A stretch of 56,311 nucleotides of DNA from Oscillospiraceae bacterium. GTDB lineage: Bacteria; Bacillota; Clostridia; Oscillospirales; Oscillospiraceae. The notes under the pieces were generated by a model. It worked only from the letters and a program-made list of their open reading frames with translations, had not been told where the DNA came from and did no database searches. A program made the position numbers and the translations under genes. The stretch spans positions 1-56,311 of the forward strand of contig JAFTFT010000024.1 of assembly GCA_017458335.1 (NCBI GenBank), given 5' to 3'. Below, in pieces: positions 1,061 through 41,793 of the stretch. Position 1 is the stretch's first letter, and every line of letters starts with the position of its first letter.

Positions 1061-1852
1061 ATGAGAGTTGTTATTCAGGAAGATTACAATAAAATGTGCA
1101 AATGGGCTGCGGATTACATCGCGGCGAAGATCAACGCCCACAAGGAAGCAAGACCCTTTGTTCTGGGCCTGCCCACCGGCTCTTCCCCGATCGGGGTGTA
1201 TCAGGAGCTGATCAAGAAGAACAAAGCCGGCGAGCTGAGCTTTGCCAATGTTGTGACCTTCAACATGGACGAGTACCTTGGCCTGCCACATGAACATGAT
1301 CAGAGCTACTGGTATTTCATGCATGACAATTTCTTCGATCATCTCATCGATATGAAACCCGAGAACATCAACATCCTCAACGGCATGACCGACGACCCAG
1401 AAGGGGAGTGTGCCCGCTATGAAGAGAAGATCGCCTCTTACGGCGGAATCGACCTCTTTATGGGCGGTATCGGTGTGGACGGCCACCTTGCCTTCAACGA
1501 GCCCTTCACCTCTCTGAGCTCCAGAACCGGCGTCCGTGACCTGACCACGGACACGCGGATTGTGAACTCCCGCTTCTTCGGCAACGACCCGGAGAAGGTA
1601 CCGGCACAGGCCCTTTCCGTCGGCATCGGGACCGTAACGGACTCGAAGGAAGTCCTGGTGCTCATCAGCGGACACAACAAGGCACGCGCCTTGGCCGCGA
1701 CGGTCGAGGGCAGCGTCAGCCAGAAGTGGACCTGCAGCGCCCTGCAGATGCACAACGGCGCGATCATCGCCTGCGATGAGGCCGCCTGCGGCGAGCTCAC
1801 CGTCGACACTTATAAGTACTTCCTGGATATCGAGAAGAAGGAAAGACTCTGA
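1061..1852 (+). CDS. nagB: Glucosamine-6-phosphate deaminase
   Basis: A cytoplasmic enzyme that converts glucosamine-6-phosphate to fructose-6-phosphate and ammonia, feeding amino sugars into glycolysis. The 263-residue protein has family hallmarks: the phosphate-binding GLPTGSSPIG (36-45), NMDEY with Asp70, and GVDGHLAFNEP with Asp140, His142 and Glu147, matching the E. coli catalytic set Asp72/Asp141/His143/Glu148. I chose ATG 1061 (MRVVIQ) because AGGAG at 1048-1052 lies 8 nt before it; the in-frame ATG at 1043 lies upstream of that site. There is no adjacent nagA. It appears to be monocistronic, with the next gene on the opposite strand. Confidence 0.96.
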   Translation: MRVVIQEDYNKMCKWAADYIAAKINAHKEARPFVLGLPTGSSPIGVYQELIKKNKAGELSFANVVTFNMDEYLGLPHEHDQSYWYFMHDNFFDHLIDMKPENINILNGMTDDPEGECARYEEKIASYGGIDLFMGGIGVDGHLAFNEPFTSLSSRTGVRDLTTDTRIVNSRFFGNDPEKVPAQALSVGIGTVTDSKEVLVLISGHNKARALAATVEGSVSQKWTCSALQMHNGAIIACDEAACGELTVDTYKYFLDIEKKERL

Positions 1853-1951
1853 GAAAAGGCTTCCACGGCTTCCATATCTGATCATAACAGAAAGCAGCCA
1901 TCGGCACATGCATGCCGGTGGCTGTTTTGACAATGCGCAGAGGAAGGAGTC

Positions 1952-2905
1952 TTATGAATTCCGGACCTGCAGGTTCTCCATTTTTTCATTGAGCCAGTTG
2001 AGGATATCCTGCATGACGTCGTTGCGGTTGATCTCATTGAGCATCTCATGCCGCCCACCCGGGTAGAGGCGGATCATGACGTCCTTCAGGCCTGACCGGC
2101 AGAAAGCCTTGTAGGCCGTCTCAACCCCCGCACCGTAGTCGCCGACCGGGTCCTCGGCGCCGGACATGAAATAAATCGGGGCATCTTTGTTCATCCTGCT
2201 GATGTTTTTCTGATTGGTCAGGAACTTCAACCCGCCCATCATGTCGCGGTAGAGACTGGTCTTGCAGACAAAGCCGCAGAGGGGATCGGCGATATACCGG
2301 TCGACCGTTTCACTGTCTCTGCTCAGCCAGTCAAAGGACGTACGGGGATTTTCAATCCGCTTGCAGTAGGACCCGAAGGCCATGTCATTGAGCGCCTGAC
2401 CGCTGGAACGTGGACCTTTGAGCTTCGTCATAAGTTCGGCGGCCAGGTAGCCTCCGTTCACCAATGCGGGGGACTGGTGTCCGGTCCCGCTGAGGATGGC
2501 CGCGTCATAGAGATCGGGATGCAGGATCAGAAACGTGCGGGTCAGAAAGCTTCCCATGCTGTGGCCGAAGAACACATAGGGCAGGTTCGGAAACTGTTCT
2601 GTCACCTGCTCCCGGAGCTTTTTCATATCCTCGACGACATAGTTCCAGCCGTCTTTCTCGGCAAAAATACCCTGTTCCTCCAGGCGTGCAATGGACTTGC
2701 CGTGACCGAGATGGTCGTTTCCGACGGCGACAAAACCGTTTTCCGCCAGAAAGCGCATGAAGTCCTCATAGCGGTTGATGTGCTCGGCAATACCGTGCGC
2801 GATCTGGACGATGCCTCTGGGGGCCCCGTCCGGTGTGCAGATTCGGGCGTGAATCTGGTTCTTCCCCGTAGAGGACTCATAATAGAAATCCCGGAATTCA
2901 GGCAT
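1952..2905 (-). CDS. Alpha/beta hydrolase, monoacylglycerol lipase/lysophospholipase-like
   Basis: 317 residues with the serine aminopeptidase S33 (Hydrolase_4) fold. A nucleophile elbow GHSMG places Ser116, the acid is likely Asp252 in SGAEDP, and the base is His286 in GGRHEM. The N-terminal HGIAEHINRYEDF and VGNDHLGHGKS are typical of PldB/monoglyceride-lipase-type proteins acting on lysophospholipids or monoacylglycerols; the substrate is inferred only. The start is MPEF at 2905 because GGAGAGGAG lies just upstream on the minus strand. No signal peptide is seen, so it is probably cytoplasmic. It is divergent from dut. Confidence 0.88.
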   Translation of the reverse strand: MPEFRDFYYESSTGKNQIHARICTPDGAPRGIVQIAHGIAEHINRYEDFMRFLAENGFVAVGNDHLGHGKSIARLEEQGIFAEKDGWNYVVEDMKKLREQVTEQFPNLPYVFFGHSMGSFLTRTFLILHPDLYDAAILSGTGHQSPALVNGGYLAAELMTKLKGPRSSGQALNDMAFGSYCKRIENPRTSFDWLSRDSETVDRYIADPLCGFVCKTSLYRDMMGGLKFLTNQKNISRMNKDAPIYFMSGAEDPVGDYGAGVETAYKAFCRSGLKDVMIRLYPGGRHEMLNEINRNDVMQDILNWLNEKMENLQVRNS

Positions 2906-3007
2906 GGTTTTTTCTCCTCTCCTATGATATAGTAAGATGATTGATGACACAATTCTACTCTCAGAACTGTGATTCGTCAAGAAACATGCAGGACGGAGTG
3001 TACAGAG

Positions 3008-3442
3008 ATGACGATCAAAGTGAAAAAAGTCAGCCCGACGGCCGTGATTCCGACACACGGAAGCAGCTTCTCGGCGGGCTATGACCTCTATGCGGATCTT
3101 CCGGAAGCGCTGGTCATCATGCCGCATGCCACCGTGACGGTGGACACGGGGCTGAAATTCGAGCTGCCGGAAGGTTATTTCGCGGGGATTTTTGCCCGCA
3201 GCGGCATTGCCACCCGGGAAGGCCTGCGCCCGGCCAACTGTGTCGGGGTGTGCGATTCGGATTACCGCGGCAACTATATGGTCGCGCTGCACAATGACTC
3301 GGAGGAACCCCGGACGGTGACCCCGCACGAGAAGATTGCCCAGATGATCGTGATGCCATACCTTCCCCTGGAGTTTGAAGAGGCGGAGGAACTGAGCGAT
3401 ACGGTCAGAGGCGAGGGCGGTTTCGGCAGCACGGGAACGTGA
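3008..3442 (+). CDS. dut: dUTP diphosphatase (dUTPase)
   Basis: Hydrolyses dUTP to dUMP and pyrophosphate, keeping uracil out of DNA and supplying dTMP synthesis. The 144 residues match the trimeric dUTPase family in order: motif 1 AGYDLYA (23-29), motif 2 ARSGIA (63-68, usually GRSG), motif 3 GVCDSDYRGNY (80-90) with the uracil-contacting Tyr86 region, and motif 5 RGEGGFGSTGT (134-144), the P-loop-like C-terminal arm. I chose ATG 3008 because GGAG at 2995-2998 precedes it by 9 nt. The gene stands alone between two minus-strand genes. Confidence 0.95.
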   Translation: MTIKVKKVSPTAVIPTHGSSFSAGYDLYADLPEALVIMPHATVTVDTGLKFELPEGYFAGIFARSGIATREGLRPANCVGVCDSDYRGNYMVALHNDSEEPRTVTPHEKIAQMIVMPYLPLEFEEAEELSDTVRGEGGFGSTGT

Positions 3443-3519
3443 CTCCCGCGCCGCGGCCAATGCTGCAGCCGCCGGCGTGACCGCCCTGCCGGACAGCCGG
3501 GCGGGGGCGGCAGGTGCAT

Positions 3520-3550
3520 AGAAAAATACCCCCGCAGAAGCAGGGGTATT
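3520..3550 (-). terminator. Intrinsic terminator of ackA
   Basis: Hairpin with arms ATACCCC and GGGGTAT around a GC-AGAA-GC core. On the minus strand it is followed by TATTTTTC. It lies between the convergent dut and ackA genes and may work weakly in both directions. Confidence 0.8.
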
Positions 3551-3576
3551 CTCTTAGGAACTGCCGTCCCGGATAA

Positions 3577-7658: not shown

Positions 7659-8579
7659 ATGGCAAAGACCATATTGCCTTATGTTATTTCGGGAATCTCG
7701 GTAGGCGGCCAGTATGCGCTGATTGCCATCGGATATACGATGGTGTACGGCATCCTGCGGCTGATTAACTTCGCCCACGGCGATGTGTTCATGGTTGCGG
7801 GCCTGATGATGGTGTACATGGCCGCGTCCATGCCGCTGTATATCGCGATTCCGCTGATGATCATTCTGACTGTGTTCCTCGGCTTTATGATCGAACGCGT
7901 GGCATACCGGCCGCTGCGTACGGCGCCGCGCATGTCCGTCATGATCTCTGCCATCGGTGTCAGCTATCTGATCCAGAACCTTGCGCTGTACATCACCGGA
8001 GGCCTGAACAAGAACTATCCCGCGATCCCCTGGATCTCTGACCGGGTTACGGTTTTCGGGATGGAAACCTCCCGCGTCACCATCATCACGCCGTTTCTCA
8101 CCATCGTCCTGGTGGTGCTGCTGGTGCTGCTGATCAACCATACGAAGATCGGCATGGCCATGCGGGCGGTGTCTCTGAACTTTGAAACCTCACAGCTGAT
8201 GGGCATCCGTATCAACAACGTCATCTCTGCCACGTTCATCATCGGCACCTTCCTGGCGGCGGTGGGCTCGATGCTGTTTTTCACAAACTATCCCGGTGTG
8301 GTGCCGACCTCAGGCGCGATGCCGGGCCTGAAGGCCTTTGTGGCGGCGGTGTTCGGCGGGATCGGCTCGATTCCCGGCGCGGTGATCGGCGCGTTCATCA
8401 TCGGCATTGCGGAGAGCCTGATCAAAGGCCTGGACACGATCCTGATCGTGCACGGAACCATTACCGAGCAGATCGGCTTTGCCACCTTTTCCGATGCGTT
8501 CACCTTTGTGCTGCTGATCATTGTCCTTGTGTTCAAGCCAACGGGACTCTTCGGTGAGAAGACCACCGACAAGGTCTGA
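7659..8579 (+). CDS. livH: Branched-chain amino acid ABC transporter, permease LivH
   Basis: 306-residue integral membrane protein with about eight hydrophobic segments and family signatures GGQYALIAIGYTMVYGILRLINFAHGD (N-terminal half) and GIRINNVISATFIIG with the EAA-like cytoplasmic loop before it (MAMRAVSLNFETSQLMG). It forms the translocation channel with LivM. The start at 7659 is set by AAGGAGG at 7644-7650. It is co-transcribed with livK and livM; the gap to livM is 15 nt. Confidence 0.95.
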   Translation: MAKTILPYVISGISVGGQYALIAIGYTMVYGILRLINFAHGDVFMVAGLMMVYMAASMPLYIAIPLMIILTVFLGFMIERVAYRPLRTAPRMSVMISAIGVSYLIQNLALYITGGLNKNYPAIPWISDRVTVFGMETSRVTIITPFLTIVLVVLLVLLINHTKIGMAMRAVSLNFETSQLMGIRINNVISATFIIGTFLAAVGSMLFFTNYPGVVPTSGAMPGLKAFVAAVFGGIGSIPGAVIGAFIIGIAESLIKGLDTILIVHGTITEQIGFATFSDAFTFVLLIIVLVFKPTGLFGEKTTDKV

Positions 8580-8594
8580 GGGGAGGCGAGTGAA

Positions 8595-9761
8595 GTGAAA
8601 ACGATAAATGACTCCCGCAACAGACAGAAGACTTCCTGGGGCTCGCTGCTTCTGGTACTGGTCTTCCTCGCGATCGTGTTCTATCTCGACCAGAACATCA
8701 AGCCGACAAACAAGATGTTCATGCTCCTTACGGTCCTTCAGAAGGGTTCGGTCTACGCACTTGCCGCCGTGTCCATGAATCTGTTGAACGGCTACACGGG
8801 GCTCTTTTCCCTGGGACATGCCGGCTTCATGCTGATCGGCGCCTATACCTATGCGATCTTCACGATCCCGTCCTCCGCGCGCGACACGGTGTATCAGTAC
8901 TTTGACGCGGCGATCCGCTTCTCCTTCCCGGAGACCTTTTCCAATGTCATGGGGCCTGCCGGTACTGCACTGGGTGTTCTGGTGGCAGTGATCCTGGCCG
9001 GACTGATGGCGGCCTTCTTTGCCTACCTGATCGGCCTTCCGGTCCTGCGCCTGAAGTCGGACTATCTGGCCATCGCGACGCTGGGCTTTGCGGAAATCAT
9101 CCGTGCGGTGTTCCAGTGGCAGAAGCTCGGCCCGATCACCAACGGCTCAAACCTGCTGAAGAGCTTCGCGCGAACCAGCAAGTTCAAGCTGGAGGTCGGC
9201 GACACCAAGCTGGTTCTCTCAACCTTCGTACCGGTCCTGATTGCGACGGTTTCCATTATCATCATTGTGAAGCTGGTCAACTCCACCTACGGCCGCGCCT
9301 TCAAGTCGATCCGTGACGACGAGGTTGCCGCGGAGGCCATGGGCATCAATCTCGCCAGGCACAAAATGATTTCCTTCACGGTGAGCTCCTTCTTCGCCGG
9401 CGTTTCCGGCGCCATGATGGCAATGGTGCTGTCCATCGCCCAGGCGAGCAACTTCAAGTCCGCCATGACCTATGAGATCCTGTTGATGGTGGTGCTGGGC
9501 GGAATCGGCTCCATCTCCGGCTCGGTCATCGGCTCCTTCCTCTTTGTGGCGGCTTCCGAGTGGTGGCTGCGCGGCCTGGATTCCGGAACCTTCCTCGGCA
9601 TCAACGCGCCCGGCGTCTTCCGCAACGGCTTCCGTCTGGTCGTTTTCTCGATCATCATCATGATCGTGGTGCTCTTCTTCCGAAAGGGCATCATGGGTGA
9701 GAAAGAGATTTCGGATCTGTTCCGCGACCGAAAGAAAAAGGCAAAGGGGGCAGCGAAATGA
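8595..9761 (+). CDS. livM: Branched-chain amino acid ABC transporter, permease LivM
   Basis: 388-residue polytopic membrane protein, partner of LivH. It shows the conserved NLLNGYTGLFSLGHAGFMLIGAY and the cytoplasmic coupling loop RAFKSIRDDEVAAEAMGIN. It starts with GTG at 8595, preceded by GGAGG with an 8-nt gap. It ends in a basic tail (RDRKKKAKGAAK) and overlaps livG by 4 nt, implying translational coupling. Confidence 0.95.
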   Translation: MKTINDSRNRQKTSWGSLLLVLVFLAIVFYLDQNIKPTNKMFMLLTVLQKGSVYALAAVSMNLLNGYTGLFSLGHAGFMLIGAYTYAIFTIPSSARDTVYQYFDAAIRFSFPETFSNVMGPAGTALGVLVAVILAGLMAAFFAYLIGLPVLRLKSDYLAIATLGFAEIIRAVFQWQKLGPITNGSNLLKSFARTSKFKLEVGDTKLVLSTFVPVLIATVSIIIIVKLVNSTYGRAFKSIRDDEVAAEAMGINLARHKMISFTVSSFFAGVSGAMMAMVLSIAQASNFKSAMTYEILLMVVLGGIGSISGSVIGSFLFVAASEWWLRGLDSGTFLGINAPGVFRNGFRLVVFSIIIMIVVLFFRKGIMGEKEISDLFRDRKKKAKGAAK

Positions 9762-10609
9762 GAAAAGACAAGCCCTGCGTCCTCAAGGTCGAGGATGTCA
9801 CGATGCAGTTCGGCGGTGTGGTCGCCGTGAACAACTTCAGCATGGAAGAATACGAGGGCGAGATCGTCGCCATCATCGGACCGAACGGCGCCGGCAAGAC
9901 GACGGCCTTCAACGTCATCACGGGCGTCTATGCCCCTACCAACGGCCGCGTCTCCTTTAACGGCGAGCGCGTGATCGAAAACTATCCCCGCGGCAAGATG
10001 AAGAAGGCCTATCTCGGCCAGAACGCCGGCAAGTATACCGAGCATCTGGAACCGACGCCGGATAAGCTGACGGCCCTGGGAATGGCCCGAACCTTCCAGA
10101 ATATCCGTCTCTGGAAGAGCATGACCGTGTTTGAGAACGTCCTGATCGCCAAGCATCTGAAGCGCACAAGCAACGTTTTCTCCGCCACCTTCGGCGCAAA
10201 CCGAGTGGAGGAGCAGATGCAGCGGGACGAGGCCGATGCCCTCATCGAAACGGTGGGCCTCGCCGATGTGAGAGACGAACTTGCGACCAGCCTGCCCTAC
10301 GGCAAGCAGCGCCGCCTGGAGATCGCGCGTGCGCTGGCCACGGAGCCGAAGCTCCTGCTGCTGGATGAGCCGGCCGCCGGCATGAACCCGCAGGAGACAG
10401 TGGAGCTGACCAGATTCATCGGCGAGATCCGGGATCAGTTTCATGTCAGCATCCTGCTGATTGAGCACCACATGGATCTTGTCATGGATATCTCCGAGCG
10501 GATCTATGTTCTGGACTTCGGCAGCATGATCGCGAGCGGCACGCCGGCTGAAATTCAGCAGAATGAAAAGGTTATCGATGCCTACCTGGGGGTGACGGAC
10601 GATGCTTGA
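9758..10609 (+). CDS. livG: Branched-chain amino acid ABC transporter, ATPase LivG
   Basis: 283-residue nucleotide-binding subunit. Walker A GPNGAGKT (41-48), a signature-like LPYGKQRRLEIARAL, Walker B LLLLDEPAAGMNP with the catalytic Glu, and a switch His in IEHHMD. LivG signatures lack the strict LSGG, as here. It couples ATP hydrolysis to transport as a heterodimer with LivF. Overlaps livM by 4 nt and livF by 8 nt. Confidence 0.95.
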   Translation: MRKDKPCVLKVEDVTMQFGGVVAVNNFSMEEYEGEIVAIIGPNGAGKTTAFNVITGVYAPTNGRVSFNGERVIENYPRGKMKKAYLGQNAGKYTEHLEPTPDKLTALGMARTFQNIRLWKSMTVFENVLIAKHLKRTSNVFSATFGANRVEEQMQRDEADALIETVGLADVRDELATSLPYGKQRRLEIARALATEPKLLLLDEPAAGMNPQETVELTRFIGEIRDQFHVSILLIEHHMDLVMDISERIYVLDFGSMIASGTPAEIQQNEKVIDAYLGVTDDA

Positions 10610-11306
10610 AGTCAAAGATCTGCATGTTTCCTACGGCGGAATCCGCGCCCTGCGCGGCGTGAATCTGGAAGTCCCCGACGGAAGGATCGTCACCCTGATC
10701 GGCGCAAACGGCGCCGGAAAGTCAACCCTGCTGCGAACCATCTCCGGCCTTGTGAAGGCTGAGAGCGGATCAATCACCTACGACGGAAAAGAACTGCTCG
10801 GCATGCCCATCAACAAGATCCTGGAGCTGGGTATCGCCCAGGTTCCGGAGGGACGGCGCGTGTTCACCAACCTTTCCGTGCTGGAAAACCTGAAGATCGG
10901 CGCCTATCTGCGCAAGGACAAGGCCGGAATCCAGAAGGACATCGAATGGGTCTATGAACTGTTTCCGCGGCTGCAGGAGCGCTCCTGGCAGATGGCCGGA
11001 ACCCTCTCCGGCGGTGAACAGCAGATGCTGGCGGTGGGCCGCGCGCTGATGAGCCGCCCGAAACTGATGATGATGGATGAGCCCTCCCTCGGTCTTGCCC
11101 CTCTTGTGGTCAAGGGGATCTTTGAGATCATCCGGGAAATCAACCGCCAGGGCGTCACGGTCCTGCTGATCGAGCAGAACGCGAACATGGCCCTGAAAAC
11201 GGCCGACCTGGCCTACGTCCTGGAAACCGGAGAGATCACGCTCCACGGAACCGGGGCAGAGCTGCTCACGAATGAAGCGGTCAAACGCGCCTACCTCGGC
11301 GAATAG
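10602..11306 (+). CDS. livF: Branched-chain amino acid ABC transporter, ATPase LivF
   Basis: 234 residues with Walker A GANGAGKS (34-41), signature LSGGEQQMLAVGRAL, Walker B LMMMDEPSLGLAP with catalytic Glu, and the LIEQNANMAL switch region in which the usual His is Gln, normal for LivF. Last gene of the liv operon; an intrinsic terminator follows at 11364. Confidence 0.96.
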   Translation: MLEVKDLHVSYGGIRALRGVNLEVPDGRIVTLIGANGAGKSTLLRTISGLVKAESGSITYDGKELLGMPINKILELGIAQVPEGRRVFTNLSVLENLKIGAYLRKDKAGIQKDIEWVYELFPRLQERSWQMAGTLSGGEQQMLAVGRALMSRPKLMMMDEPSLGLAPLVVKGIFEIIREINRQGVTVLLIEQNANMALKTADLAYVLETGEITLHGTGAELLTNEAVKRAYLGE

Positions 11307-11363
11307 AGTCGGAAGAACATCCAGAACAGAACGAAACCGGGAGCCGAAACGCCCCGGCGGCAG

Positions 11364-11396
11364 ACAGAACCGGGAGAAGTTCCCGGTTCTGTTTTT
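11364..11396 (+). terminator. Intrinsic terminator of the liv operon
   Basis: Perfect 12-bp stem ACAGAACCGGGA / TCCCGGTTCTGT with a 5-nt loop, followed by a T-run. Confidence 0.92.
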
Positions 11397-11410
11397 AATG
11401 CTTCTTTTTC

Positions 11411-11439
11411 TTGACTATGCCGGGATTCGATGCTACAAT
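11411..11439 (+). promoter_or_regulatory. Sigma-A promoter of the cyclic-nucleotide-binding pair
   Basis: TTGACT (11411-11416), 17-nt spacer, TACAAT (11434-11439), about 50 nt before the first start codon. The two genes downstream are therefore transcribed separately from liv. Confidence 0.8.
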
Positions 11440-11488
11440 AACATGCGGTAGAATCTATAAATATATCAGTTTACAGGAGGAAATTGAT

Positions 11489-11965
11489 ATGAATGTCAAG
11501 TCTTTTAAGAAGGGCGCGGTCATTTTCCGGCAGGGCGACGCCGGTGACTGCATGTATGATATTCAATTCGGCAAAGTCGGCATTTTTGATCATTACGGCG
11601 AGCCGGATGAGAAGAAGATTGCCGATCTCTATGCCGATCAGATCTTCGGCGAGATGGGCCTCCTGGATCACGCCCCTCGCAATGCGACGGCTGTCGTGCT
11701 GGAGAACGAAACCGTTCTTTCCGTGATCTCGGAGGAGGAGTTCTTTGAGTACTTTGAGAAGGAACCGGTGAAGATTCTTGTTCTGATGCAGCAGATGTGC
11801 AACCGCCTGCGCCGTACCTCCAAGGACTATCTCGAAGCCTGCCGTACGGTTCACGATACGGTGGCCGCGGAAAAAGCCGGCAAACCGAAGAGCGGCGGCC
11901 TGCTTGCCAGCCTCCAGAAGCTCTGCGCGGCATATAAAGGCTACGACTACTTCGCTCATAACTGA
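11489..11965 (+). CDS. Stand-alone cyclic-nucleotide-binding-domain protein (first of a tandem pair)
   Basis: 158 residues consisting of one cNMP-binding beta-roll followed by a helical tail; no helix-turn-helix or other effector domain is present. The N-terminal FKKGAVIFRQGDAGDCMYDI is the classical first part of the fold. The phosphate-binding cassette IFGEMGLLDHAPRNATAVV (52-70) keeps both ligand-contacting residues, Glu55 and Arg64, so cyclic nucleotide binding is plausible. Start ATG 11489, with AGGAGG at 11475-11480. It is similar along its length to the next gene. Partner and output are unknown. Confidence 0.82.
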   Translation: MNVKSFKKGAVIFRQGDAGDCMYDIQFGKVGIFDHYGEPDEKKIADLYADQIFGEMGLLDHAPRNATAVVLENETVLSVISEEEFFEYFEKEPVKILVLMQQMCNRLRRTSKDYLEACRTVHDTVAAEKAGKPKSGGLLASLQKLCAAYKGYDYFAHN

Positions 11966-11982
11966 CGGAAGGGGGAAGAACA

Positions 11983-12441
11983 ATGAATACCTTAGTCTTC
12001 AAGAAGGGTGACGTTATTTTCCGGCAGGGGGATTTCTCTTCCGTGATGTATGACATCGCAAAGGGAAAGGTTGGCGTCTTTGCCGATTATGAGACAGAAC
12101 GGGTGCATCAGCTTGCCGAACTCAAGGCCGGGGACTTCCTCGGCGAAATGGGCATGATCGAGGTCTATCCCCGCAGTGCGACGGCCGTCGCGCTGGAAGA
12201 CGGCACGGTGCTCAATGAGATCGGCGAGAATGAACTGAATGCCTATTTTAATGACAAGCCCGAAAAGCTCCTGAAGATCATGAAGCAGGTCAGCGCCCGT
12301 CTCCGGGAGATAGACAAGAAGTATCTCAGCGCATGCCGCGTTGCCTTTGAGAGCGCGGCTGCGGAAGCGGAGAGCACCGGAAAGAGCGAGCAGCTGAAAG
12401 AAAAGATGGAAGCCATCTATGAGGAATACGAAAAACTCTGA
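11983..12441 (+). CDS. Stand-alone cyclic-nucleotide-binding-domain protein (second of a tandem pair)
   Basis: 152-residue paralogue of the preceding protein, 17 nt downstream. The same FKKGDVIFRQGDFSS start is followed by the cassette FLGEMGMIEVYPRSATAVA with Glu55 and Arg64 at identical positions. The tail is an acidic, probably coiled-coil helix (about 110-152) instead of a DNA-binding domain. The two may heterodimerise; this is inference. A terminator hairpin follows at 12455. Confidence 0.82.
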   Translation: MNTLVFKKGDVIFRQGDFSSVMYDIAKGKVGVFADYETERVHQLAELKAGDFLGEMGMIEVYPRSATAVALEDGTVLNEIGENELNAYFNDKPEKLLKIMKQVSARLREIDKKYLSACRVAFESAAAEAESTGKSEQLKEKMEAIYEEYEKL

Positions 12442-37282: not shown

Positions 37283-39259
37283 ATGAAGAAGATCCTTGCA
37301 CTGGTTCTCGCTCTCGCCATGGTGTTTGCCCTGACGGCCTGCGGCGGAACCACCACCCCCAAGGCATCGGAAGCCCCTGCGGCAACGGAGGCTCCCGCTG
37401 AAGAGAGCCCCGCTGCCGAAGAAGCCGCTCCCGCCGAGGAAGCCGCTCCTGCTGAGGAATCCACTCCTGCTGAGGAAGCCGCTCCTGCCGAAGAAGCTGC
37501 TCCTGCCGCTGAGGAAGCCGCTGCCGAAGAGCCCGCGGCCGAAGCCGGCGCCAGCTCCATCGCTGTCTGCCTCGCTTCCGAGCCTGACACCCTTGACCCG
37601 GCCCTGAACTCCGCTGTCGACGGCGCTACCCTCGTCAGCCACCTGTTCTCCGGCCTTGCCAAGTGGGCCCAGGATGACTCCGGCGCTCTCGTCATCGTCC
37701 CCGATGCCGCCACCGAGCTGGTGGAAGGTGTTGAGAACGAAGACGGCACCGTCACCTACACCTACACCCTGCGCGACGGCATGAAGTGGTCCGACGGCAA
37801 AGACGTCACCGCGGCCGACTTCGCCTTTGCCTGGCAGCGCGCTGCCTCCGTTGAACTCGGCGCCGACTACGGCTACATGTTCGAGGTCGTTGACGGCTAC
37901 GACGATGTCTGGGCAGAAGAGCCTCCCGAGGGTGCTCAGCTGAACGTCAAGGCTGTTGATGACAAGACCCTCGAGGTCACCCTGGCCAATGCCGTTTCCT
38001 ACTGGAACGAGCTTCTGGCCTTCCCGACCTATTTCCCCGTGCGTGAAGATGTTGTCTCCAACGAAGGCTGGGCCACCGATCCCTCCACCTATGTCAGTAA
38101 TGGTGCCTACACCATGACCGGCTGGAATCACAACAGCCTGATCACCCTGGAGAAGAACCCGAACTACGTCGATGCCGACAAGGTTCTCATGGACAAGATC
38201 GAGTTCTACCTGTCTGATGATGCCAACAACCAGCTGTCCAACTTCAAGAACGGCACCTGGCAGCTGATCGACGATGTTCCCACCAACGAGATCGCGGCCC
38301 TCAAGGCGGACTATCCCGATGAGTTCAAGGTGGAAGGCCAGATCGGTACCTACTATGTCTGCTGGAACGTCAATGAGCAGATCCTTCCCGAAGGCAGCGA
38401 GCTTGAGGGTGTTGACGCCGAGAACGCCAAGGCCGAGATCCGCAACGCCATCAGCCTGATCTTCGACCGCAATTACATCGTTGACGACATCGCCCAGGGC
38501 GGCCAGGTCCCCGCTTCCTCCTTCGTCGCCATGGGTATGACCAACCCCGACGGAACCCAGTTCTATCAGACTGCCGGCTCCAGCGAAGACTTTGACGGCT
38601 ACTACAACGTCTCTGCCGATGCCCTGGAGGACAACTTCACCCAGGCCATCGAAGTCCTGAAGAAGTATTATGACTATGACGAGACCACCGGCCAGTTCTC
38701 CGGTTTCCCGACCCTGACCTACCTCTACAACACCTCTGAAGGCCACAAGGCCATCGGTGAGTATCTGCAGAGCGCCCTGGCCGGCATCGGCATCACCATG
38801 AACCTGGAGAACCAGGAGTGGGCCACCTTCCTGAACACCCGTAAGAACGGCGATTACTCCATCGCCCGCAACGGCTGGCTCGCCGACTACAACGATCCGA
38901 TCTGCTTCCTGGATATGTGGACCACCGCTTCCGGCAACAACGATGTCCAGTTCGGCAAGGGCGCACACAAGGATGTCGCCGCTTACAGCCTGGATCTGAC
39001 CGACCTCGGTCTGGACGTCAAGGTGGAGAACGGCACCTGGGCCGAGACCTACGATGTCCTGATCAAGGCCATCAAGGGCTGCACCGACAACGAGGTACGC
39101 TATGAGCTCATGCACCGCGCCGAGGACCTCCTCATGAGCACCGGCTGCATCTGCCCGCTGTACTTCTACACCGACCTGTTCATGCTGAACAAGGATGTGG
39201 AAGGCTTCTTCTCCAACCCGCTCGGATACAAGTACTTCATGTACTGCACCGTAAAATAA
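37283..39259 (+). CDS. oppA: Oligopeptide ABC transporter, lipoprotein substrate-binding protein
   Basis: 658-residue SBP_bac_5 family lipoprotein. Signal peptide with lipobox LTAC/GG (Cys about residue 20), then an Ala/Glu/Pro-rich linker of degenerate AAPAEE repeats (about 29-85) and the binding domain starting ASEPDTLDPALNSAVDGATL. It captures peptides for OppBCDF. Last gene of the operon, followed by a strong terminator. The linker DNA (about 37380-37540) is an imperfect tandem repeat and may be length-variable. Confidence 0.93.
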   Translation: MKKILALVLALAMVFALTACGGTTTPKASEAPAATEAPAEESPAAEEAAPAEEAAPAEESTPAEEAAPAEEAAPAAEEAAAEEPAAEAGASSIAVCLASEPDTLDPALNSAVDGATLVSHLFSGLAKWAQDDSGALVIVPDAATELVEGVENEDGTVTYTYTLRDGMKWSDGKDVTAADFAFAWQRAASVELGADYGYMFEVVDGYDDVWAEEPPEGAQLNVKAVDDKTLEVTLANAVSYWNELLAFPTYFPVREDVVSNEGWATDPSTYVSNGAYTMTGWNHNSLITLEKNPNYVDADKVLMDKIEFYLSDDANNQLSNFKNGTWQLIDDVPTNEIAALKADYPDEFKVEGQIGTYYVCWNVNEQILPEGSELEGVDAENAKAEIRNAISLIFDRNYIVDDIAQGGQVPASSFVAMGMTNPDGTQFYQTAGSSEDFDGYYNVSADALEDNFTQAIEVLKKYYDYDETTGQFSGFPTLTYLYNTSEGHKAIGEYLQSALAGIGITMNLENQEWATFLNTRKNGDYSIARNGWLADYNDPICFLDMWTTASGNNDVQFGKGAHKDVAAYSLDLTDLGLDVKVENGTWAETYDVLIKAIKGCTDNEVRYELMHRAEDLLMSTGCICPLYFYTDLFMLNKDVEGFFSNPLGYKYFMYCTVK

Positions 39260-39275
39260 GAGAAGTTTCAAGCAG

Positions 39276-39311
39276 CACTCCGGGGTGAAAACAACCCCGG
39301 GGTGTTTTTTT
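39276..39311 (+). terminator. Intrinsic terminator of the opp operon
   Basis: 11-bp stem CACTCCGGGGT / ACCCCGGGGTG, 7-nt loop, then seven T residues. Confidence 0.93.
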
Positions 39312-39323
39312 ATGCAATTCCAG

Positions 39324-39352
39324 TGGACAAGGCAGAGGAACTCTGTTAAAAT
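39324..39352 (+). promoter_or_regulatory. Sigma-A promoter of the ABC exporter gene
   Basis: TGGACA (39324-39329), 17-nt spacer, TAAAAT (39347-39352), 39 nt before the start codon. Confidence 0.7.
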
Positions 39353-39391: not shown

Positions 39392-41500
39392 ATGACGATG
39401 AAAACAATTCACGTCCGGAATACCGATTCTGATCTGGACAGAGTCAAAGCTTTTCTGGAAGAGAACCTGGAACTCAACGACAGGGAAAAGCAGATGATCT
39501 CTCTACTGATCTGTGAGGAGCTGATCACCCGCCTTCTGCAGTCCGGCAACGATGAGGTCTCCGTATTTATCCGGGGACGGCTGTTTCCCCGTGTCGTTCT
39601 CGTCTCGCGGCTGCCCATGGACGACGACCGGACCCTGATGGATCAAAGCGAAGACGACCGAATCGAGACGGAAATCCGCCGGGATATCCTGAAACAGTAC
39701 GAGGCTTATATTGATCAGGAACAGCGCGGAGATCGGATCGTTTACAGTGTCCATTCCGGACGGAAAAACGGGGACGGCTTCAAGGAGGATATCCTCCGCT
39801 ACTATGAGCGGGAAGGCCAGCGGAAAAACAGAAAACCGACGGATCTGCTGCGCTTCCTGGCGAGGGAGAATCGCGCCATGGTCGGCCTGTCCGTGTTCAA
39901 CCGGACGGTCAAGCATCTCTGCGCTCTGCTGCTCCCGGTCTTTGCCTCCGGAATGATCGATACGCTGTCGGACTGCAAATCCTTTTTTGAAGCGCCTGTT
40001 CTGATGAATATCTTCGGGGCGATCCTTGCCCTGACCGTTAATCTGATCTGCGCAACCCTGGACGCCAGGGTGTACCAGCGCTTTGCCCGCGGGGTCGAAT
40101 CCGGCTTCAAGGTGGCGATTGTCCAGAAGCTGCAGATGCTCTCCATGAAGTATTACAGCCGGACGCCGAGCGGAAAGGTGTTCTCCAAGCTCGCCTCTGA
40201 CGTTCAGTTTATCAAGATGCTGATGTGTGAGCAGATGCAGACCGTTCTGCACCTGGGGATTGATATCGTTTTTGTGACCGTTGTGGCGCTGATCCGGATG
40301 CCGCTCATGCTGCTGTTCTATGCGATTGTGCTCCCCGTCTCGGTTTGGATCGTCCGTCGCCATATGACACCGATTCGTACGAGCCGGGCGGCGATGCGCC
40401 GGAAGACGGAAGTGGTGAACGCCGCCTTCAAGGAGATGATCGGCATGGAGCAGATCACCCGTGCCCACGGGGTGCAGCAGACGGAGTACCGGAATATTTC
40501 TTCCAAGGTGTGGTCGGTGGAAAGCGCCTCTGTTGAGCAGGACCGGCTTCAGGTCCGGCTCAACAACGCCATCTACGCGACATCTCAGGGCTTCCGCCTC
40601 CTGTGCATTTCCATCGCCGTTTATTTTGCCTTCAAGGGCCGGATCAGCGTGGCCTCCATTGTCCTGTTTGCGTCTCTGTTTGACGCGCTGAACAACAGCG
40701 TCCAGAAATACCTCGATGATGTCCCGCAGATCACCCAGGAGATGGAGAGCCTGACGAGCGTGGATGAACTGCTCAGTGAGAAAGACATTGAGAAAAACGG
40801 AAGCGAGCTGCTGCCGCTTCCCGTCCGGGGCGAGATCCGCTTCGAGCATGTGAGCTTCCGCTATGCGCCGGAACAGGGGCCGATCCTTTCTGATGTGGAT
40901 ATCCATATTCCGGCCGGGCAGAGCGTCGCCCTGATCGGCAAATCCGGTTCCGGAAAATCCACAGCTCTTGCCCTGCTTGTGGGGCTCTATTCTCCGCAGG
41001 AAGGCAGGATCACCATCGACGGAATGGATCTCGACGCACTCGACAAGAACCGCTTCCGGCGCTATATTGCCGTTGTTCCGCAATCATCGGTTCTGTTATC
41101 CGGAACGCTCTGGGATAACCTCGTCTATGGCCTGAAATATGTCTCCGAGGAACGCGTCATGGCTGCCTTGCGGGATGTCGGCCTCGAGGAGCTCGTCACC
41201 GGGCACCCGGACGGACTGCTCCGCCCGATTGCCGAAGGCGGAGAGAATCTCTCCGGCGGCCAGCGGCAGAGGATTTCCATTGCGCGCGCCCTGCTCAGGG
41301 ACCCCCGTATTATCCTGCTTGACGCGGCGACCAGCGCGCTGGATGCCGAGAGCGAGCGCGAGGTCCAGGCGGCCATCGAGGCCATCATGGGCAAGTGCAC
41401 CATCATCATGGTGGCGCACCGCCTGAATACCATCCGAAAGGCCGACGTGATCTACCGCTTTGAAGACGGTCATGTCACTCGCTGTGAGGAGGCACTGTGA
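39392..41500 (+). CDS. ABC exporter with atypical N-terminal domain and Ala at the Walker B catalytic position
   Basis: 702-residue half-transporter. Residues 1 to about 150 are a soluble domain that is not a C39 peptidase (no catalytic Cys motif). LDRVKAFLEENLEL...LLICEELITRLLQ resembles the first part of RsbW-like HATPase folds, but the N-box Asn is missing; this is tentative. A type I exporter membrane domain follows (about 165-430), then the nucleotide-binding domain with Walker A GKSGSGKS (516-523), LSGGQRQR and His676. Walker B reads IILLDAATSALD: Ala645 replaces the catalytic Glu (codon GCG at 41324). No partner half-transporter is adjacent. Its only downstream neighbour is a double-glycine-motif small protein, so peptide export is a reasonable guess. 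Confidence 0.85.
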   Translation: MTMKTIHVRNTDSDLDRVKAFLEENLELNDREKQMISLLICEELITRLLQSGNDEVSVFIRGRLFPRVVLVSRLPMDDDRTLMDQSEDDRIETEIRRDILKQYEAYIDQEQRGDRIVYSVHSGRKNGDGFKEDILRYYEREGQRKNRKPTDLLRFLARENRAMVGLSVFNRTVKHLCALLLPVFASGMIDTLSDCKSFFEAPVLMNIFGAILALTVNLICATLDARVYQRFARGVESGFKVAIVQKLQMLSMKYYSRTPSGKVFSKLASDVQFIKMLMCEQMQTVLHLGIDIVFVTVVALIRMPLMLLFYAIVLPVSVWIVRRHMTPIRTSRAAMRRKTEVVNAAFKEMIGMEQITRAHGVQQTEYRNISSKVWSVESASVEQDRLQVRLNNAIYATSQGFRLLCISIAVYFAFKGRISVASIVLFASLFDALNNSVQKYLDDVPQITQEMESLTSVDELLSEKDIEKNGSELLPLPVRGEIRFEHVSFRYAPEQGPILSDVDIHIPAGQSVALIGKSGSGKSTALALLVGLYSPQEGRITIDGMDLDALDKNRFRRYIAVVPQSSVLLSGTLWDNLVYGLKYVSEERVMAALRDVGLEELVTGHPDGLLRPIAEGGENLSGGQRQRISIARALLRDPRIILLDAATSALDAESEREVQAAIEAIMGKCTIIMVAHRLNTIRKADVIYRFEDGHVTRCEEAL

Positions 41501-41571: not shown

Positions 41572-41793
41572 ATGAAAGAACTGCTTGATGAGTACATGGA
41601 AGATGTTTCCGGCGGAGCTCTGGTCATAGACGACGAAAGACATGAGTACTGGCTGGTTCGCCGTGACGGCAGCGTGATTGCTCCTGTCCCGATGGAGAAG
41701 GGCGCGGAGTTTGCCAAAGCCTTCGGCACCAGTGATGAGGTCATGACAAAGGAAGAATACCGCAAAAAGTTCGGCAGAGAACTGAAGTGGTAA
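41572..41793 (+). CDS. Small protein with double-glycine leader motif, candidate exported peptide
   Basis: 73 residues, AGGAGGG before ATG 41572. The N-terminus MKELLDEYMEDVSGG fits the double-glycine leader consensus: Leu at -12, hydrophobic at -7, Val at -4, Gly-Gly at -2/-1. The 58-residue remainder (ALVIDDERHEYWLVRRDG...) is charged, has no Cys, and ends KKFGRELKW. It follows an ABC exporter gene by 71 nt but has its own promoter and terminator. A bacteriocin, signal or RiPP-like precursor role is inferred; an ordinary small cytoplasmic protein is the alternative. Confidence 0.65.
   Translation: MKELLDEYMEDVSGGALVIDDERHEYWLVRRDGSVIAPVPMEKGAEFAKAFGTSDEVMTKEEYRKKFGRELKW

Follow-up and report, generated by a model that had tools for sequence, protein, structure and literature searches.

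An ABC exporter from an Oscillospiraceae genome with a degenerate RsbW-like N-terminal domain and a private Walker B alanine

Homodimeric ABC exporters of the BmrA/MsbA type consist of half transporters in which a transmembrane domain (TMD) is joined to a nucleotide-binding domain (NBD) with canonical motifs, and their wild types keep the Walker B glutamate. Exporters of this type are not known to carry an RsbW-like N-terminal domain. In the PCAT/NHLM exporters, the TMD is preceded by some 150 additional residues, either with a C39 peptidase (TIGR03796) or without it (TIGR03797). RsbW-type domains are known from the anti-sigma kinases RsbW and SpoIIAB (PF13581, HATPase_c_2), and SpoIIE-type phosphatases work opposite these kinases in partner switching.

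The gene considered here lies in the window, that is, the whole 56,311-nucleotide stretch of DNA that was analysed (Oscillospiraceae bacterium, assembly GCA_017458335.1, contig JAFTFT010000024.1). Its product is best described as an ordinary exporter scaffold preceded by a pseudo-RsbW regulatory domain, and the copy in the window, with an alanine private to it, is probably inactive; we regard this overall description as quite likely to be correct.

Exporter scaffold and ATPase motifs

The exporter gene (39392..41500, + strand) is an intact open reading frame of 702 amino acids, in which an extra N-terminal domain precedes the TMD and the NBD. Pfam recognises ABC_membrane at residues 166-436 (51.5 bits, cut-off 28) and ABC_tran at residues 499-648 (111 bits, cut-off 25), both above their cut-offs. 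Residues 1-163, searched alone, give no Pfam match at E<=5, a threshold at which the HMMER filters discard most matches above about 0.1. The best NCBIfam match of the exporter is TIGR02203 (MsbA), whose 306 bits are far below the cut-off of 602, and NHLM_micro_ABC2 (TIGR03797) is likewise not reached, with 287.5 bits against 709.4. The protein is probably one subunit of an MsbA/BmrA-like homodimeric exporter, with which it shares the TMD-NBD layout of a half transporter and the canonical motifs.

Indeed, Walker A (GKSGSGKST, residues 516-524, 40937..40963, + strand) and the ABC signature (LSGGQRQR, residues 620-627, 41249..41272, + strand) are intact, and the Q-loop (VVPQSS), D-loop (SALD) and H-loop (VAHRLN) are canonical. 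One difference from the BmrA and MsbA wild types lies in the codon GCG at 41324..41326 (+ strand), which places Ala645 in the Walker B stretch IILLDAATSALD where the catalytic Glu is expected. An earlier note on this DNA had reported both this codon and the integrity of the remaining ATPase motifs, and both readings are confirmed.

Ala645 among homologues and its expected consequence

In a search of the genus with a profile of the N-terminal domain, the domain was found in 9 of 102 genomes, the window's own included, and every time in an ABC exporter gene. Residue 645 is Glu in all eight homologues with the same domain (codon GAG in seven, GAA in one), of which two are nearly identical, so that about seven are independent. 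A scan of species genomes returned three loci, one of them a close relative in the goat-jejunum metagenome-assembled genome RGIG2509, which is 86% identical across residues 241-698 and whose Walker B reads LLDEATSALD. The earlier note had suggested looking for co-occurrence of the alanine with the N-terminal domain among homologues; since eight of eight have Glu, the two do not form a joint trait, and Glu in homologues is also what the note had named as speaking against its own reading. Among the copies found, Ala645 is private to one assembly.

The gene is otherwise under apparent constraint. At 209 sites invariant in the other rows of the alignment, the window copy deviates at three (L355I, F514L and E645A), with 0-15 deviations in the other rows (the nearly identical L049 and L050 were each excluded from the other's leave-one-out set), and dN/dS between the window and its nearest homologue is 0.21 in the N-terminal domain, 0.087 in the TMD and 0.089 in the NBD. 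As the exporter gene is constrained and the alanine private, Ala645 reflects either recent mutation or an erroneous consensus, which only the reads could tell apart. An error of consensus or assembly, with Glu in the organism's real protein, is somewhat unlikely; it would fit the presence of Ala in only one of nine copies of an apparently constrained gene and an assembly of 44 contigs that is 83.69% complete and 4.06% contaminated, but nothing in the rest of the open reading frame looks erroneous. That the exporter is truly being lost in the genus, with the catalytic base gone in the window and other copies interrupted, is a possibility to be held with some doubt. The gene is broken across reading frames in three of the eight homologous copies (L029, L045 and L048), which together with Ala645 gives a hint of recurrent loss, and the gene is scattered unevenly over the genus (9 of 102 genomes); against this, dN/dS is low and the frame splits may be assembly errors, the figure of three in eight standing without a baseline from other genes.

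The consequence of the alanine, if real, can be anticipated from a laboratory equivalent, the E504A mutant of BmrA. In the parts of two reports that concern this homodimer (PMC9284561, PMC11836358), ATP is described as bound at both sites, with hydrolysis strongly impaired and the transporter blocked in the outward-facing state. A review (PMC7756269) states that transport is blocked when the catalytic Glu of a canonical site is modified, and that where Asp, Met or Ser naturally takes its place, this is in the degenerate site of the two. Because E504A blocks BmrA and a change of the canonical Glu stops transport, a homodimer would be expected to stall when Ala occupies both of its sites. Thus, the window copy would bind ATP and close its NBDs and would then be arrested outward-facing, like BmrA E504A; it should then be a pump that is dead or acts as a dominant negative, and no novel type of channel. 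Normal ATP hydrolysis would be expected of the other members of the family, which have the catalytic Glu.

The earlier note had favoured other readings of the alanine, namely that the protein is regulated, that it acts as a gated channel or that it forms one half of a heterodimer, and these do not hold up against Glu in eight of eight homologues and a window gene that no other exporter gene adjoins. A functional natural variant acting as an ATP-gated or regulated conduit instead of a pump would agree with the intactness of all remaining ATPase motifs and has a precedent in CFTR, an ATP-gated channel in which, according to the same review (PMC7756269), one of the two sites has Ser. However, CFTR is altered at one site only, a change of the canonical-site Glu blocks transport according to that review, and the alanine occurs in one genome without co-varying with the N-terminal domain, which makes a conduit very improbable. 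An equally slight chance is given to a heterodimeric exporter in which a partner subunit supplies the catalytic site. Judged by position, the window's genome does contain three tandem exporter pairs, and one subunit of those pairs has Asp for the Walker B Glu (Walker B was read in seven of nine exporters, those other than L012 and L014). No exporter gene, however, adjoins the window gene within the window; in the surroundings of the homologues, some of them on short contigs, the sole other ABC match is a lone ATPase domain near L045; and the family would be expected to retain a degenerate half, yet all eight homologues have Glu. Ala645, whether mutation or error, does not amount to a new mechanism, and later work should not treat it as such.

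The N-terminal domain and its relatives on transporters

The useful part of the locus is the N-terminal domain, which points to a small unannotated pseudo-RsbW family on ABC exporters and SDF symporters. It covers residues ~1-125 (39392..39766, + strand) and is followed by a linker to the TMD (residues ~126-163, 39767..39880, + strand), in which a low-confidence model places a helix at residues 130-145. The alignment of the family shows invariant Cys41, Glu42, Glu43, Leu44, Leu48, Leu49, Gly52, Val58, Asp78, Ile95, Leu100 and Tyr103 in the domain, and Tyr138 in the linker. The domain goes unrecognised by the models of both Pfam and NCBIfam. In Pfam searches of all eight N-terminal domains, only single chance matches (E>0.1) were obtained and none to HATPase at E<=5. 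A C39 peptidase was considered and rejected, as already supposed in the earlier note: Pfam C39 is not matched in any of the eight members at E<=5 and, although Cys41 is invariant, there is no invariant His, in which respects the domain differs from the N-terminal region of PCAT exporters.

Relatives outside the genus were sought at increasing taxonomic depth. A single-sequence query matched 1 of 200 in the family; a two-row profile matched 3 of 394 in the order, two of them by chance; a search of the class matched 4 of 391, with L069 real and two due to chance; and a nine-row profile that includes L069 matched 6 of 394 in the order, among them L124, L125, L128 and two chance matches. In L069 (G972) a region resembling the domain stands before an SDF symporter (E 0.003), and L124 (G587, E 3e-14) and L125 (G579, E 2.4e-4) are further fusions to SDF (Na+:dicarboxylate) symporters. 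All three have a degenerate RsbW-like N-terminal domain that Pfam does not recognise, i.e. the same kind of domain before a transporter as in the window exporter, but on an unrelated transporter class and in genomes of three further families belonging to that order or class. L128, matched at E 0.008, has a Pfam-confirmed HATPase_c_2 domain; it was rejected as a transporter fusion, being a STAS-APH-HATPase_c_2 protein with a genuine RsbW-type domain. The weak matches L042, L043, L067, L068, L126 and L127 were judged by eye, from their open reading frames, to be chance.

The relation to RsbW emerges from profile comparisons with hhalign, for which the figures are single-comparison E-values from shallow profiles. 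Compared directly, the N-terminal domains matched an RsbW set (23 HATPase_c_2 domains of the genus) over the full domain at E 2.4e-4 with a modest probability of 44%, and matched L069 plus three HATPase_c_2 proteins at E 1.5e-7; the reversed controls of these runs gave E 0.017-0.42. The SDF-fused set works as a bridge, since it matched the exporter N-terminal domains at E 8.1e-12 and RsbW at E 1.6e-11, and the two sets combined matched RsbW at E 5.1e-9 with a probability of 96%, with reversed controls at E 0.086-0.31. The similarity spans about 110 columns.

RsbW-type domains fused to membrane transporters also occur in the window's genome itself, where two MATE transporters, L052 (G000:C25) and L122 (G000:C2), carry HATPase_c_2 above the Pfam cut-off. 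In contrast to the window exporter, the domain is C-terminal in these proteins and passes the Pfam cut-off, and direct comparison of profiles does not relate it to the domain of the window exporter: with the domains of 19 long-frame MATE-type genes, chosen by open-frame length and not each confirmed as MatE, the N-terminal domains gave no match (0.9%, E 0.063), and E 1.2e-4 with a probability of 55% was reached once the SDF-fused set was added.

A search of PDB sequences with the N-terminal domain profile returned nothing relevant, only two unrelated matches (E 0.26 and 0.42); with an RsbW of the genus as query, the same kind of search found B. subtilis RsbW at E 7e-4. An AF2 model of the domain from a two-row alignment was poor (pLDDT 44). 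In a fold search with this model, two chains of 8jzt (a SigF/anti-sigma complex) ranked first, with probabilities of 0.98 and 0.96, and chain G of 6m36, one or the other protein of an RsbV/RsbW complex, was fifth with 0.93. Acetyltransferases ranked in between these matches, and histidine-kinase ATPase domains ranked below them; the anti-sigma complex matches had E 0.019-0.14, and none reached E<=0.001.

As judged by the profiles, the N-terminal domain is distantly related to the RsbW-type HATPase_c_2 domain, and the suggestion of a degenerate HATPase/RsbW-like fold in the earlier note thus finds support in the comparisons with reversed controls, in the SDF-fused bridge and, weakly, in the fold search. 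It keeps the Glu of the N-box, which like the G-boxes is a motif of RsbW-type domains. Unlike the RsbW/SpoIIAB kinases, it lacks the N-box Asn and the GLG stretch, lies below Pfam detection and is fused to a transporter. The N-box Asn of RsbW aligns with Arg47, and with Arg, Cys, Tyr or His in the other exporter copies, and in the alignment no GLG stretch was found in the exporter N-terminal domains. With both features lost, the domain would not be expected to bind ATP as its relatives do, and it probably binds no nucleotide. On this sequence evidence, a real pseudo-RsbW domain, hitherto unannotated, is fused to the transporter, as a degenerate relative and not a working member of the group. 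A cytosolic domain derived from RsbW/SpoIIAB-type HATPase_c_2 (GHKL) proteins would thus sit before the TMD, where PCAT exporters have their C39 peptidase, and would best be understood as a pseudo-kinase module with a docking or regulatory function towards the pump. The statement in the earlier note that no exporter with this combination has been described is not contradicted by the open-access literature, where nothing relevant on a fusion of an RsbW-type domain with an exporter was found, which is weak evidence of absence.

Gene neighbourhood and possible regulation

Upstream of the window gene lies an opp-like cluster, recognised by eye, and downstream a MATE gene on the opposite strand. 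The open reading frame at 37283-39259 resembles a peptide-binding protein and has a long Ala/Glu/Pro-rich stretch near its N-terminus. The upstream opp genes are followed by a terminator-like hairpin (39274..39306, + strand) and by a promoter-like site (TGGACA-17-TAAAAT with TG before the second hexamer, 39324..39352, + strand), both from a consensus scan. Given these sites just upstream, the exporter gene may be monocistronic, although such sites are nearly as common in shuffled sequence (4 against 2.4 for terminators, 2 against 1.3 for promoters).

Several neighbours are shared between exporter copies and none is common to all. L046 and L048 have downstream genes in common, L049 and L050 share their flanks, and a YitT/DUF6198-like membrane protein is encoded no more than about 6 kb from the exporter in L044 (3877-4821), L045 (12019-12741) and L047 (11277-12002). 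Near the exporter homologue of L047 (G296), open reading frames at 1182-3576 and 9131-10468 resemble, by eye, an adenylate-forming enzyme, a sugar acyltransferase and a condensation-like protein.

In L048 (G284), the stop of the exporter overlaps the start of a gene (8865-12074) for a 1069-aa Reg_prop protein with a C-terminal SpoIIE phosphatase (156.9 bits). In L045 (G255), a Reg_prop protein encoded divergently beside the exporter (~8575-12015) has an HD-type output and is 52% identical to the L048 protein in the sensor part. A SpoIIE link is thus present in one of eight copies and a Reg_prop sensor in two of eight, figures without a background rate for comparison; on the window contig neither gene was found at E<=1e-4. 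Within the gene context, the SpoIIE sensor of G284 speaks most strongly for a regulatory role of the N-terminal domain. We tentatively propose that unrelated membrane transporters, ABC exporters as well as SDF symporters, have acquired degenerate RsbW-type domains that control them from the N-terminus, alongside the canonical-looking MATE versions, and that partner-switching signals, e.g. from a SpoIIE-phosphatase sensor via a STAS-type partner, gate transport directly and not via transcription. No STAS gene was recognised by eye beside the exporter homologues or the SDF fusions, some of whose neighbours were also scanned with Pfam. If the domain binds a partner, stress-type partner switching would be coupled directly to membrane transport, and the Glu-bearing homologues, one with an overlapping SpoIIE sensor gene, make this idea testable.

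The next open reading frame after the exporter, on the same strand (41572..41793, +), encodes 73 amino acids with a double-glycine-leader-like N-terminus (ELLDEYMEDVSGG). It matches no library family, and 16 of 102 genus genomes, counting the window's own, contain a homologue; its relatives (L139-L153) share a conserved core, and the GG motif is kept in all 15 that were read. The exporter might secrete this peptide, with the pseudo-RsbW domain replacing a leader-binding domain. Besides adjacency and retention of the GG motif, such a role would fit two distant peptide relatives near NHLM-like exporters, one of them in L152, where one exporter and one Nif11-leader peptide exceed curated cut-offs, and the co-occurrence of both genes in four genomes where 1.4 would be expected (P 0.03, with no correction for the size or relatedness of the genomes). 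In the three other genomes with both genes, however, these lie on separate contigs, for 15 of the other 16 places with the peptide no exporter of the window family was found in the surrounding stretch, and G257 (RGIG2509) is without the peptide. As the peptide gene adjoins an exporter of this family in the window alone, its role as substrate is speculative and rated improbable, and the open reading frame probably stands outside the exporter unit. At the L153 locus (8204-10734), several small open reading frames with differing double-glycine-type leaders lie beside a sigma-factor-like gene, recognised by eye, and an ABC exporter.
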